From the NCBI RefSeq assembly GCF_000374465.1, contig NZ_KB894528.1:1043127-1107126 (forward strand): a DNA stretch of 64,000 nt, read 5' to 3'. The stretch comes from Ahrensia kielensis DSM 5890. Lineage in GTDB: Bacteria; Pseudomonadota; Alphaproteobacteria; Rhizobiales; Rhizobiaceae. Both the position numbers and the translations under genes were made by a program. The notes beneath the pieces were generated by a model. That model saw nothing but the letters and a program-made list of their open reading frames with translations, made no database searches and was not told the DNA's origin. Positions within the stretch are counted from its first letter, which is position 1. Every line of letters starts with the position of its first letter. Shown here piece by piece: positions 32,974-37,826 of the stretch.

Positions 32974-33255
32974 GTGGCAGACACGTTTAACAAAGTGGCA
33001 GACATTATTGCGGATACAAGTGAAATTGACCGCGAGACAATTACAGAAGAAAGCCACACGATTGATGATCTTGGCATTGATAGCCTTGATTTCCTTGATA
33101 TCGTTTTTGCTATCGACAAAGAATTTGGCATTAAAATCCCGCTTGAAAAGTGGACGCAGGATGTCAACGACGGCAAAGTTCCAACCGAAGAATATTTCGT
33201 GTTGAAGAATCTTTGCGGTAAAATTGACGAACTCGTCGCGGCAAAATCTGCTTAA
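32974..33255 (+). CDS. acpXL: Acyl carrier protein for very-long-chain fatty acids (AcpXL)
   Basis: A 93-residue acyl carrier protein beginning with GTG behind AAGGA. Ser37 in 'GIDSLDFLD' is the phosphopantetheine site. The length and the C-terminal half ('[20 protein letters not shown]') match AcpXL, the dedicated carrier on which 27-hydroxyoctacosanoate is built for lipid A in rhizobia and brucellae, rather than housekeeping AcpP. It heads a five-gene cluster ending in the lipid A acyltransferase. In related genomes fabZXL follows directly; here it is missing. Confidence 0.94.
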
Positions 33256-33307
33256 TTGACAAAATTTATTTACTTGAAATGAAAATTCGATAGTCGGAGG
33301 GTCAACC

Positions 33308-34522
33308 ATGAACGAACAGAACATGGACGGTCGTGACGTTGTAATTACCGGTATCGGAATGGTTTCGGCACTGGGTGTAGGCGCTCAGCAAAACTGGGAC
33401 AATTTTTCATCGGGCGCTGCGCCTGTATTTGATAGTGAAAAATTTTCGCCCTACACCGTGCATCCTCTGCCCGAAATCGATTGGGCAGAGCAAATCTCTA
33501 GGCGCGATCAACGCCAGATGGAGGCGTGGCAACGTATCGGCACCTACACTGCCGGTTTGGCGCTTGATGATGCTGGCCTAAAGGACAGCCTCGAATTTAC
33601 GTCGACTATGGATATGATCGTTGCGGCCGCAGGCGGTGAGCGCGACGTTGATGTCGACACAATGATCCTTGCAGAAGCAAGCAAAGGTGAAACGGACACG
33701 TCGATCATCGTCAATGAAAAATTGACGACAGAGCTACGTCCAACATTGTTTCTAGCCCAGCTTTCCAATCTGTTAGCTGGCAACATTTCTATTGTGCATA
33801 AAGTAACAGGCTCCTCACGCACTTTCATGGGCGAGGAGGGCGCGGGCATTTCTGCCGTGCGCACTGCTGCGGCCCGTATTCGCTCAGGTCAGAGCACACA
33901 CGCGCTTGTTGGCGCTTCGTTCAACGCTGAACATCCAGATATGTTGCTTGGATATGAAATCGAGCATCATTTAAAGCGCGATGGCTGGACGTCTGTTTGG
34001 CAACGTGAAGACAGTGATGGCGGCGGCCTTATAACCGGTTCAGGCGGCACTTTTCTCGTTTTGGAATCACGTAGCCATGCCGAAGCGCGCGGCGCTCGTA
34101 TTTATGCGACACTTGAAAGCGTTGAGGCCGATCAAGGTAAATCGGATCAAACTGCAACCGCTGAACGCTTAAGCGGAATTAGCAGTGCGACAAAACTAGC
34201 AAATGCAAGCTACATCATTTCAGCAGCATCTGGCGCAAAGCAACGCACTGAAATTGAAAAAGAATTTCTAAATTCATCACTTAAAGCCGTGCCAGTACGC
34301 GGCGTTGCTTCAGCCGTTGGTCATATGCGCGAAGTGCAATTTCCCTTCGCCATCGCATTGGCCGCTTTGAGCCTGCATCACGAAAAACCAATTGAACAAA
34401 TGGATAGCCGCTTTGAGGTTGCCATCAGTCAAAAGCCAGAGCGTGTTGGCGTTCTAAGTCTTGGATATGAAGACGCAGAAGGCGCAGCTTTTCTAACACC
34501 TGCGAACGGAGGCAAAGCATAA
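33308..34522 (+). CDS. Cysteine-free ketosynthase-like subunit (FabF2XL-like)
   Basis: 404 residues with the thiolase/ketosynthase fold ('VVITGIGMVSALGVGAQQNW', 'SDGGGLITGSGGTFLVLES'). It contains no cysteine at all. The usual active-site STACAS segment is replaced by 'KVTGSSRTFMG' (about 165-174), and the NAHGTST His site reads 'YIISAASGAKQR'. The GH of the second His motif remains ('SAVGHMREV'). It therefore cannot condense acyl chains in the standard way and resembles a chain-length-factor (KS-beta) partner of the complete ketosynthase that follows with TAATG overlap. It follows acpXL in the very-long-chain lipid A cluster. Start ATG has GGAGGG upstream. Confidence 0.88.
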   Translation: MNEQNMDGRDVVITGIGMVSALGVGAQQNWDNFSSGAAPVFDSEKFSPYTVHPLPEIDWAEQISRRDQRQMEAWQRIGTYTAGLALDDAGLKDSLEFTSTMDMIVAAAGGERDVDVDTMILAEASKGETDTSIIVNEKLTTELRPTLFLAQLSNLLAGNISIVHKVTGSSRTFMGEEGAGISAVRTAAARIRSGQSTHALVGASFNAEHPDMLLGYEIEHHLKRDGWTSVWQREDSDGGGLITGSGGTFLVLESRSHAEARGARIYATLESVEADQGKSDQTATAERLSGISSATKLANASYIISAASGAKQRTEIEKEFLNSSLKAVPVRGVASAVGHMREVQFPFAIALAALSLHHEKPIEQMDSRFEVAISQKPERVGVLSLGYEDAEGAAFLTPANGGKA

Positions 34523-35805
34523 TGTCAAAGTTCACCGATAAAAATGGTCGCCCAATCATTGCTATAACTGGCGTTGGCGTTGTTTCCTCACTTGGACGCG
34601 GTAAAAAAGATAACTGGGACAAGCTTACAAGCGGCGTTTCAGGCATCCACAAAATTACCCGCTTCCCGCAAGATCACTTGCGAACAACTATCGCTGGTAC
34701 TGTCGATTTTATGACAGCACCCGAAGAAGGCTCTGCCGCCCTCACCTATACATTGGCGGAAGCTGCAGCCATTGAAGCCATAGACGAAGCGGGCATTTCG
34801 ACAAGCGATTTTGGCGGCCAACTTTTCCTTGCCGCACCGCCCGTTGAACTTGAATGGCAACATCGCTTTCAATTAAACGCTGAAGGCGCTGAGCTTACAC
34901 CGAGTGTTCAAAGCTATGATCGCCTGCTTCTCGCAGCAAAATCAAGTAAGCATCCTTCGTTCTCAGCATCGGTTAAATTTGCGGCAACAGCGCGCCGCCT
35001 GCAAGATCGTATTGGTTCACGCGGCCTTCCTGTCACATTGTCAACAGCATGCGCTTCGGGCGCGACGGCTATTCAAACAGGCGTTGAAGCCCTTCGCCGC
35101 GGCGAGACTGATCGCGCCATTGCCATTGGCACTGATGGTTCTGTGACAGCCGAAGCACTTATTCGTTTCTCGCTGCTTTCAGCGCTTTCAACGCAAAATG
35201 ACGAGCCAGAAAAAGCCTCCAAGCCCTTCTCGAAAGACCGCGATGGTTTCATCATGGCAGAAGGTGCAGGCGCACTGGTTCTTGAAACACTAGAAGCTGC
35301 CACAGCACGCGGCGCAAAAATTCTGGGCATTATGGAAGGTTGCGGCGAATGCGCCGACGATTTCCACCGCACGCGCTCAAAACCAGATGGATCACCAGCC
35401 ATTGCTGCCGTTCTTGCCGCCCTTGACGATGCAGGCGTAACGCCAGACGAAATTGACTATATCAATGCGCATGGCACATCCACGCCCGAAAATGACAAGA
35501 TGGAGTGCATGTCACTCACATCCATTTTTGGCCATAGACTTGGCGGGACACCAATATCCTCCAATAAATCGATGATTGGCCATACATTGACAGCCGCAGG
35601 CGCAATTGAAGCCGTATTTTCACTGCTCACAATTCGCAACGGCGTTCTTCCGCCAACCATAAACTATCTCAATCCAGATCCGGCTCTTGAGGTGGATGCG
35701 GTGCCAAATGAGAAGCGCGATGCTGATGTGAAACGCGTATTGTCCAACTCATTTGGGTTTGGTGGACAAAATGCCTGCCTTGTCATCGGGCGCGAACCCG
35801 CTTAG
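34522..35805 (+). CDS. Beta-ketoacyl-ACP synthase of the long-chain lipid A cluster (FabF1XL)
   Basis: 427 residues, a complete condensing enzyme. Cys177 in 'LSTACASGATAIQ' is the nucleophile, the first His is in 'YINAHGTSTPEND', and the Lys and second His are in 'SNKSMIGHTLTAAGA'. It should extend acyl-AcpXL intermediates toward C26-C28, probably as a heterodimer with the preceding cysteine-free homologue, whose stop it overlaps by one base. It would act in the cytoplasm with AcpXL and the dehydrogenase encoded next. Confidence 0.92.
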   Translation: MSKFTDKNGRPIIAITGVGVVSSLGRGKKDNWDKLTSGVSGIHKITRFPQDHLRTTIAGTVDFMTAPEEGSAALTYTLAEAAAIEAIDEAGISTSDFGGQLFLAAPPVELEWQHRFQLNAEGAELTPSVQSYDRLLLAAKSSKHPSFSASVKFAATARRLQDRIGSRGLPVTLSTACASGATAIQTGVEALRRGETDRAIAIGTDGSVTAEALIRFSLLSALSTQNDEPEKASKPFSKDRDGFIMAEGAGALVLETLEAATARGAKILGIMEGCGECADDFHRTRSKPDGSPAIAAVLAALDDAGVTPDEIDYINAHGTSTPENDKMECMSLTSIFGHRLGGTPISSNKSMIGHTLTAAGAIEAVFSLLTIRNGVLPPTINYLNPDPALEVDAVPNEKRDADVKRVLSNSFGFGGQNACLVIGREPA

Positions 35806-35843: not shown

Positions 35844-36872
35844 ATGCGCGCGCTACAGCTTGTCGAAGACCGTAAACTTGAACTTGTTGAAGTACCGGAA
35901 CCGGATGCACCGGGTCTGGGAGAAGTTCAACTACGTATTAAAGCGGTAGCACTAAACCATATTGATGTGTGGGGATGGCGCGGCATGGCTTTTGCAAAAC
36001 GCAAATTGCCCCTCACCGTTGGCGCAGAAGCCTCTGCCATTGTTGAATCTGTTGGCCCAGGCGTCTCTAACTTTTTGCCAGGCCAGCTTGTCTCCATCTT
36101 TGGTGCACGCACCTGCGGCCTTTGCCGCGCATGTAAAGAAGGCCGCGACAATCACTGCGAACATGTTGGCGGCGTGCATGGCTTCCACTTAGATGGCTTT
36201 GCGCAGGAATTGGTCAATATGCCAGCGCGCAATCTTGTCGCTGCCCCTCCCGGCGTTGATGAAATTGGCGCAGCTGTCTCACCCATTACTTTTGGCACCG
36301 TCGAGCACATGCTTTTTGACAATGCTAAACTTGAACCGGGTGAAACAGTTCTTGTCCATGCTGGCGGCTCTGGCATTGGCTCAGCAGCAATTCAGCTTGC
36401 CAAAAAGATGGGTTGCACAGTCATCACAACCGTTGGCTCTGACGCGAAAATAGAACCAGCAAAAACCCTCGGCGCTGATCACGTTATCAATTACCGCGAA
36501 GACCGGTTTGAAGGCGTTGTACGCAAGCTGACGAAGAAAAAAGGCGTCGATGTCGTGTTCGAACATGTGGGCGCAGACACTTGGGCAGGCTCAATGCTTT
36601 GCATGAAGCGCGGCGGCAGACTTGTCACTTGCGGCTCAACATCAGGCGTCTCCACATCCATGAACCTTATGATGCTTTTCCAGCAGCAATTGCGCCTTAT
36701 CGGGTCTTTCGGCTGTAATATGCGCAATATGGAAGATGCTATGCAGAAAATGGCACGCGGTATCGTGCATCCTGTTATCGACACTGAAGTTGATTTTGCA
36801 GGCATTGGCAAAGCACTTGAGCGTATGGAAACACGCGATGTGTTTGGCAAAATTATTCTACGCGTTTCCTGA
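35844..36872 (+). CDS. Zinc-type alcohol dehydrogenase/enoyl reductase of the lipid A cluster
   Basis: 342 residues of the medium-chain dehydrogenase family. The structural zinc site is intact ('CGLCRACKEGRDNHC'), and the Rossmann motif is 'VHAGGSGIGSAAIQLAKKMG'. The catalytic-zinc site looks degenerate: where alcohol dehydrogenases have C-x-T-D, this has 'NHIDVWGWRG', and the following GHE reads GAE. That pattern suits a quinone-oxidoreductase or enoyl-reductase-like enzyme using NADPH. In this cluster it may supply a reductive step in elongation, as proposed for the adh2XL position in rhizobia. Confidence 0.85.
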   Translation: MRALQLVEDRKLELVEVPEPDAPGLGEVQLRIKAVALNHIDVWGWRGMAFAKRKLPLTVGAEASAIVESVGPGVSNFLPGQLVSIFGARTCGLCRACKEGRDNHCEHVGGVHGFHLDGFAQELVNMPARNLVAAPPGVDEIGAAVSPITFGTVEHMLFDNAKLEPGETVLVHAGGSGIGSAAIQLAKKMGCTVITTVGSDAKIEPAKTLGADHVINYREDRFEGVVRKLTKKKGVDVVFEHVGADTWAGSMLCMKRGGRLVTCGSTSGVSTSMNLMMLFQQQLRLIGSFGCNMRNMEDAMQKMARGIVHPVIDTEVDFAGIGKALERMETRDVFGKIILRVS

Positions 36873-36881
36873 TAAGTACTC

Positions 36882-37826
36882 ATGAGCTGGAAAATCCAGA
36901 TATTCAAAGCCAAAACAAAGCTAAAGCATGTGCGCTATTGGCTTGAGGCAAAAGTGTCTTTTGCAATGCTTGGCGCGCTGCGTTTATTGCCAATGAAATC
37001 GGCAATGACACTCAACGCAAAGCTATTGCAGTTCATCGGGCCTTTCCTGCCACGTCATAAAATGGTGATCGAAAATCTCACTCAAGCCTTTCCTGAAAAG
37101 GACAATGCAGAAATAAAAAAAATCGCACGCGGTATGTGGCGCAATATTGGACGCCTAATTTCCGAATATATCTATCTAGATCAGCTTTTTGATTATGACC
37201 CTGACTCAGATAAAGTCGGTCTTGTCGAAGTTGAGGGCGAAGATATTTTTCGCCGCCTTCATGCCGAAGGCAAGCCGTGCATCTTCTTTACCGGTCATGT
37301 CGGCAATTTCGAACTTCTTCCAATTTGTGCCGCAACCTATGGTCTTGAAGTAACAGCCCTGTTTAGACCGCCGAACAATCCATATATTGCAGAACGTTTG
37401 CTCGCATCACGCACCACTGAAATGGGGCACCTTGTGCCATCAAAGGCCGGTGCTGCTTGGGGACTTGCGCGTGCGCTCGATAACGGCCAATCGGTTGGCG
37501 TTTTGGTTGATCAAAAATTCGCGCGCGGCATTGTCAGTGAGTTTTTCGGCCGCCCAGTGCGCACGAACCCATTGCTACCAAAACTTGCGCGCCAGTTTAA
37601 TGTGCCCGTATACCCTGCCCGCTGCATCCGGCTTCCCGGTGGCCGCTTCCGCTTGATCTTAGAAGAAGAACTGGTTTTGCCACGCGACGACAATAATGAA
37701 GTTGATGTTGCTCAATCAGCCCAAATGCTCAACGACGTTGTTGAGCGCTGGGTCCGCGAAACGCCGGAACAATGGATGTGGTTGCACCGGCGCTGGATTA
37801 GCAATTCTGAAAATCCAAGCAAATAA
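36882..37826 (+). CDS. lpxXL: Lipid A very-long-chain acyltransferase (LpxXL)
   Basis: 314 residues of the LpxL/HtrB family, inner membrane associated. The catalytic HX4E motif is in 'FTGHVGNFELL' and further conserved segments are 'GVLVDQKFARGIVSEFFGRP' and 'ETPEQWMWLHRRW'. As the last gene of the acpXL cluster it should transfer the 27-hydroxyoctacosanoyl chain from AcpXL to lipid A. The start is ten bases after the dehydrogenase gene. A dyad without a T tract lies after the stop. Confidence 0.92.
   Translation: MSWKIQIFKAKTKLKHVRYWLEAKVSFAMLGALRLLPMKSAMTLNAKLLQFIGPFLPRHKMVIENLTQAFPEKDNAEIKKIARGMWRNIGRLISEYIYLDQLFDYDPDSDKVGLVEVEGEDIFRRLHAEGKPCIFFTGHVGNFELLPICAATYGLEVTALFRPPNNPYIAERLLASRTTEMGHLVPSKAGAAWGLARALDNGQSVGVLVDQKFARGIVSEFFGRPVRTNPLLPKLARQFNVPVYPARCIRLPGGRFRLILEEELVLPRDDNNEVDVAQSAQMLNDVVERWVRETPEQWMWLHRRWISNSENPSK

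Follow-up and report, generated by a model that had tools for sequence, protein, structure and literature searches.

In many Alphaproteobacteria, the very-long-chain acid of lipid A matters for symbiosis and for the strength of the outer membrane; what determines its length is, to our knowledge, an open question. The closest described locus is the rhizobial acpXL-lpxXL cluster, whose genetics are known in Agrobacterium and Bradyrhizobium and which encodes two "FabF" proteins, FabF1XL and FabF2XL. Here we describe its counterpart in a 64,000-nucleotide stretch of Ahrensia kielensis DSM 5890 (contig NZ_KB894528.1, positions 1,043,127 to 1,107,126), hereafter the window. Adjacent genes encode FabF2XL (33308..34522, 404 amino acids) and FabF1XL (34522..35805, 427 amino acids) on the forward strand, as are all window features given below. 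Sequence comparisons indicate that the two proteins probably constitute an obligate heterodimeric elongating ketosynthase (KS), working much as does the pair of KS and chain length factor (CLF) in type II polyketide synthases (PKSs).

The homodimer of FabF (β-ketoacyl-acyl carrier protein synthase II, KAS II) is similar in fold and sequence to both XL proteins. Every FabF monomer combines catalysis with carrier-protein docking, and residue 133 helps to floor the pocket of the partner. In FabF, the carrier protein is contacted by region 1 (K65, R68 and K69) and region 2 (R127, K128 and R206), together with a patch formed by I129-F132, A205 and R206, and I108 is named as the acyl gate (PMC7138838). 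In complexes of FabF and FabB, it is chiefly the monomer without the crosslinked Cys that touches the carrier protein (PMC7138838, legend to Fig. 3); the catalytic subunit therefore needs the docking surface of its partner rather than its own copy. The KS-CLF pairs of type II PKSs are encoded by adjacent, overlapping genes, and of their two subunits one is catalytic and the other dead. Contact between the carrier protein and the CLF is described for the ishigamide KS-CLF complex, and the aryl polyene pair ApeO-ApeC provides a Gram-negative example of a heterodimeric KS (PMC8358021).

Active-site residues of FabF1XL and FabF2XL

The alignment set comprised 331 distinct FabF2XL/FabF1XL pairs; the 395 loci yielded 381 FabF2XL copies, some places having been fetched twice. 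Columns of FabF2XL are numbered by those of the window protein. The window proteins scored over the curated cut-offs of the families whose rhizobial products bear these names: 551 bits against NF005084 (PRK06519; cut-off, 320) for FabF2XL and 720 bits against NF005076 (PRK06501; cut-off, 629) for FabF1XL.

FabF1XL possesses the complete Cys-His-His set, as an earlier note on this DNA had reported, within the motifs STACASG, INAHGTST and NKSMIGHT. Specifically, the nucleophile Cys177 (35050..35052) is Cys in 328 of 331 rows (2 gaps, 1 X), His317 (35470..35472) is His in 327 (4 gaps), Lys349 (35566..35568) is Lys in 327 (4 gaps) and His354 (35581..35583) is His in 326 (5 gaps).

In FabF2XL, the nucleophilic Cys, the first His and the Lys are all missing, such that the protein lacks the Cys-His-His site of an active KAS II ketosynthase. 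The nucleophile column is instead occupied by a near-fixed carboxylate within the motif R-T-F-M-G-E-E. In the window protein, this corresponds to MGEE (residues 174-177, 33827..33838), in which E177 holds the nucleophile position; the column contains Glu in 326 rows, Asp in 4 and a gap in 1. The first His would fall at approximately columns 306-308, a placement uncertain by 1-2 positions, and none of the 331 rows has His at columns 303-309. The earlier note had reported the loss of this residue in the window protein. At column 311, 3-5 positions past the lost His and occupied by K311 in the window protein, 139 of 331 rows have a His; the role may have shifted to this residue, which is not fixed. 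The second His is retained in 288 rows.

The earlier note had also remarked that FabF2XL is free of Cys and, indeed, none was found in its 404 residues. Counting window columns only, this holds for just 51 of the 331 rows; total absence of Cys is therefore incidental, and the family trait is the change of Cys to Glu. Conservation across the 331 pairs makes a chance loss of the active site unlikely. Two Agrobacterium relatives (L295 and L296) also contain MGEE, and a possible start gives them a gene of 1197 bp, the fabF2XL length implied by a study of A. fabrum (PMC11901934).

Distribution and genetics of the pair

Presence of the two families was compared in one set of 297 genomes of the order. 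NF005076 was over cut-off in 79 and NF005084 in 78, all 78 of which were shared. In the sole mismatch (G224), FabF2XL is divided between two contigs, with pieces that score 314.6 and 209.4 bits, each below the cut-off. FabF2XL was over cut-off in 270 of 297 sampled genomes of the family to which A. kielensis belongs and in 15 of 289 genomes of a class sample that includes two from the order.

Of the 381 fabF2XL copies, a count that includes some re-fetched places, 376 are followed immediately downstream by fabF1XL. Three of the non-adjacent copies (L082, L226 and L353) are at contig ends. In the other two, L065 (genome G046) and L337 (genome G889), FabF2XL stands alone and FabF1XL is encoded elsewhere in the genome, with identities of 62% and 59%, respectively. 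Like a CLF, FabF2XL therefore has an obligate and adjacent catalytic KS partner. In the window, the stop codon of fabF2XL and the start codon of fabF1XL overlap by 1 base in TAATG (34520..34524).

Some genomes have two FabF2XL-FabF1XL pairs within one locus (L046, L047, L052 and L056). In the first three of these, one of the two FabF2XL copies is either shortened or divergent, and the FabF1XL paired with it reads NKGQ(M/L)GH in place of NKSMIGH.

Published genetics indicate that the genes are needed. In A. fabrum, fabF2XL is required for the very-long-chain fatty acid (VLCFA): an insertion yielded lipid A without VLCFA, and fabF2XL alone on a plasmid restored it partly (PMC11901934). Neither fabF1XL nor fabF2XL could be disrupted in Bradyrhizobium ORS278 (PMC5613085), and transposon insertions in either gene cost growth of S. 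meliloti in MOPS medium (PMC5539429). The A. fabrum study calls both proteins 3-oxoacyl-ACP synthase and, in its accessible portion, mentions neither the missing nucleophile nor a split docking surface (PMC11901934). A literature search confined to open-access papers did not find FabF2XL described as a non-catalytic partner or as part of a heterodimer.

Division of catalytic and docking segments

The strongest new evidence for the pairing is the complementary decay of the two proteins: each retains what the other has lost. FabF1XL has lost the FabF segment SPFFVPS..N...G..SI, which spans docking regions 2/3 and the dimer side. Its counterpart is retained in FabF2XL as residues 143-164 (LRPTLFLAQLSNLLAGNISIVH, 33734..33799), with P145 in 330, N154 in 326, G158 in 330 and I162 in 327 of 331 rows. 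FabF2XL also has a counterpart of docking region 1 (K65/R68/K69) in residues 63-76 (ISRRDQRQMEAWQR, 33494..33535), where R69 occurs in 327 rows and M71 in 329; the residue-by-residue match of this region to E. coli FabF numbering was made by inference.

Conservation profiles, each calculated on the protein's own columns, follow the same division. FabF1XL is conserved at the nucleophile, first His, Lys/second His and GFGG loops and least so at residues 61-168 (-0.15 to -0.20 from the mean). In FabF2XL, conservation is close to the mean at the loops that were once catalytic and elevated at 61-99 (+0.16) and 136-168 (+0.28).

The profiles were also compared with that of FabF at equal depth, using 16 FabF sequences and draws of 16 from 60 sequences per XL family, and expressed as deviation from the mean of each protein. 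In docking region 1, the values were -0.05 for FabF, -0.36 for FabF1XL and +0.15 for FabF2XL; in docking regions 2/3, they were +0.08, -0.19 and +0.29 in the same order. Gaps made up 20% of FabF1XL in docking region 1 and 1% in docking regions 2/3. The corresponding values were +0.09, +0.17 and +0.18 at the nucleophile; +0.16, +0.17 and 0.00 at the first His; +0.22, +0.19 and -0.01 at Lys/second His; and +0.17, +0.20 and +0.07 at GFGG. The acyl-gate stretch was omitted because gaps amounted to 60% of FabF1XL cells and 53% of FabF cells.

A further comparison used 142 signature columns that mark 16 FabFs of the class. Of these, 42 are retained in FabF1XL alone, 10 in FabF2XL alone, 21 in both proteins and 29 in neither protein; the remaining 40 are intermediate. 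Within residues 57-168, an interval picked after the conservation profile had been seen, no column is kept by FabF1XL alone and seven are kept by FabF2XL alone: G110, P145, N154, L155, G158, S161 and I162 (Fisher P = 9e-7).

Each protein also has a near-invariant motif close to the FabF acyl-gate position, in a part of the alignment that is uncertain. In FabF2XL, this is the family-specific GGERD (residues 109-113, 33632..33646), with R112 in 331 and D113 in 329 of 331 rows. In FabF1XL, it is Pro106-Pro107 (34837..34842), with P107 in 330 rows. Pro107 aligned with the gate residue Ile108 in one alignment, a match that is uncertain as the stretch is gap-rich in a second. As a guess, the position of Pro107 might reflect a reshaped acyl tunnel.

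Relationship to chain length factors

FabF2XL shares with CLFs the status of a KS homologue without a nucleophilic Cys. Like the CLFs of four Streptomyces KS-CLF pairs, it also keeps G..SI of the segment that serves the partner, which the catalytic partner loses in both systems. The KS partners of these CLFs have lost N, L, G, S and I alike but, unlike FabF1XL, retain Pro. Other features differ. The nucleophile position is Gln in all four Streptomyces CLFs and Glu or Asp in 330 of 331 FabF2XL rows (1 gap). FabF2XL has mostly kept the second His and lost Lys, whereas the CLFs have kept Lys and lost both His. In the XL pair, moreover, the dead subunit is encoded first and the expected product is a reduced acyl chain. 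In the E. coli aryl polyene cluster, the annotated CLF retains P, N, G and I from this segment; it has 240 residues and is encoded approximately 9 kb away from the closest of the cluster's KS genes, whereas FabF2XL is full length and adjacent to its partner.

In the phylogenetic tree, FabF2XL formed one clade (support, 100/100) on a very long branch. A branch with support of 53/94 had FabF2XL and CLF on the same side, and long-branch attraction is possible in this placement. Topology tests rejected neither a grouping of FabF1XL with FabF2XL (approximately unbiased test, p-AU 0.49) nor one of FabF1XL with KS (p-AU 0.23). An insertion apparently common to FabF1XL and KS-alpha in one alignment was dropped, as it was not shared in the second.

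AlphaFold2 monomer models were obtained for FabF1XL (predicted local distance difference test, pLDDT, 86.1; predicted template modelling score, pTM, 0.90) and FabF2XL (pLDDT 89.0; pTM 0.90), the latter being least certain at residues 1-4 and 160-167. The best 50 Foldseek matches of the FabF2XL model, with E values of 1.1e-23 to 4.0e-21, were FabF, KS and CLF chains; among the matches listed was 1tqy_B, of the actinorhodin KS/CLF entry, at 2.8e-22. The best 50 matches in VIA had Z scores of 42.0 to 40.7 and the KS fold. On these predicted models, fold comparison does not separate FabF, KS and CLF for FabF2XL.

The earlier note had likened the two proteins to the KS-alpha/KS-beta heterodimer of aromatic PKSs. 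The likeness in pairing is well supported by near-perfect co-occurrence, by adjacency and by the complementary way in which catalytic and docking segments have decayed. Membership of FabF2XL in the CLF family of aromatic PKSs gained no such support: it has Glu in place of Gln, and the tree places it firmly with neither CLF nor FabF1XL. The pair most likely works like KS-CLF.

The proposed heterodimer and its alternatives

In the proposed heterodimer, the two proteins would share a single active site. FabF1XL would supply the Cys-His-His chemistry, and FabF2XL, as the non-catalytic partner, would offer across the dimer the docking surface for acyl-AcpXL and the malonyl carrier protein. FabF2XL would also probably contribute one wall of the acyl tunnel. 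We lean slightly towards a broader account, in which the functions of a FabF homodimer came to be divided, in Alphaproteobacteria, between two proteins that depend on each other, perhaps independently of the polyketide CLFs. FabF1XL would then be left with only the chemistry and FabF2XL with only the dock, so that AcpXL would dock on one and react in the other, and FabF2XL would in addition shape a tunnel suited to C26-C30 chains.

If true, lipid A biosynthesis would include a heterodimer resembling KS-CLF, and complementary losses would here have divided an enzyme that is otherwise homodimeric. The joint retention of two "FabF" genes would be accounted for, as would the need for the gene of the chemically dead half. 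Chain-length control would become testable through subunit swaps and point mutants.

Several observations weigh against the heterodimer. Interprotein couplings were calculated by mean-field and pseudolikelihood methods from 325 of the 331 pairs (effective number of sequences, 123 at 80% identity and 171 at 85%), taking residues 95-200 of both proteins as the presumed interface. With averaged couplings, 3 of the top 50 were in the interface versus 2.6 expected (P = 0.50). Mean-field couplings alone gave 6 of the top 50 versus 2.6 expected (P = 0.047) and 7 of the top 100 versus 5.3, and pseudolikelihood alone gave 2 of the top 50 (P = 0.75). Transposed FabF1XL/FabF2XL coupling pairs were uncorrelated (r = 0.007). 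The top averaged couplings include residues 162 and 158 of FabF1XL with residue 276 of FabF2XL, and residue 116 with 131; these were not counted as support. In docking region 1, there are only three signature columns, with retention of 0.08 in FabF2XL and 0.03 in FabF1XL, and FabF1XL has 20% gaps; the argument for this region depends on the charged motif. FabB, itself homodimeric, likewise deviates from the docking motif of FabF, as seen in the FabB of A. kielensis, and loss of the motif alone is therefore no proof. Among the comparison systems, the four pairs from Streptomyces are closely related to one another and their KS partners keep the Pro lost by FabF1XL, and both KSs of the aryl polyene cluster, either of which may pair with the CLF, lack most of the segment. 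Finally, the A. fabrum insertion in fabF2XL may be polar on fabF1XL, and its complementation was only partial (PMC11901934).

Of the other explanations, the one that fares best would make the pair a full KS-CLF equivalent, in which FabF2XL of the heterodimer also sets the C26-C30 length through tunnel depth. All evidence for the heterodimer applies to it as well, and the CLFs of PKSs control length through pocket depth (PMC8358021); Pro107 and GGERD, near the FabF gate in the uncertain alignment, would fit. We nonetheless regard it as possible but doubtful, as loss of fabF2XL was reported with VLCFA absent and no length-shifted product (PMC11901934), and the selectivity of LpxXL could determine length instead. 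The earlier note had raised a similar possibility, namely that the KS-beta-like subunit might measure the C28 chain. The published genetics show need and not the measuring of chain length, because the VLCFA vanish instead of shortening and the insertion may be polar.

It is unlikely that FabF1XL and FabF2XL form separate homodimers, with FabF2XL serving separately as a scaffold or to bind the carrier protein. The lack of a robust interface signal in the coupling analysis is in keeping with such an arrangement, but a FabF1XL homodimer would have a FabF-type docking segment on neither side, and the co-occurrence of the two proteins is near-perfect. The proposed heterodimer would supply that segment from FabF2XL.

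KSQ proteins have Gln at the nucleophile position and keep both His. That FabF2XL is a decarboxylase of this type, priming the pathway as its own homodimer, is very improbable: its nucleophile is similarly replaced by a polar side chain, but that side chain is Glu in 326 of 331 rows rather than Gln, and no row has His at columns 303-309. Finally, that FabF2XL is a decaying, dispensable duplicate is hardly credible, for despite the loss of the catalytic Cys, first His and Lys, the motifs MGEE, RPTLFL and AGNISI are very strongly conserved over the 331 distinct pairs, the A. fabrum mutant is without VLCFA (PMC11901934), no disruption was obtained in ORS278 (PMC5613085) and insertions cost growth in S. 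meliloti (PMC5539429).

The surrounding operon

The operon has the order acpXL-fabF2XL-fabF1XL-adh-lpxXL and resembles the rhizobial cluster in gene order, in neighbours and in having the same families over cut-off. The acpXL gene (32974..33255) encodes a special acyl carrier protein of 93 residues (NF005079, 180 bits; cut-off, 83). Downstream of fabF1XL are an adhA2XL-type zinc-binding dehydrogenase gene (35844..36872; PF00107 and PF08240) and the lpxXL acyltransferase gene (36882..37826; NF005120, 447 bits, cut-off 273; PF03279), whose product is expected to transfer the very long chain to lipid A. Judged from the operon, the product in A. kielensis would be of the C28 type. The closest named genome found was that of Ahrensia marina (L243), with 90% identity in FabF2XL.

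Unlike the rhizobial cluster, that of A. kielensis has no fabZXL, and none lies between acpXL and fabF2XL (33256-33307). The best match of a relative's FabZXL in the A. kielensis genome was 38% identical (G000:C1:582339). M. loti is also without fabZXL and relies on the housekeeping FabZ (PMC7663294). In the cluster of a relative, a gene for an apparently FabG-like short-chain dehydrogenase (L068:2550-3317), identified by eye, lies between fabF1XL and the dehydrogenase gene.

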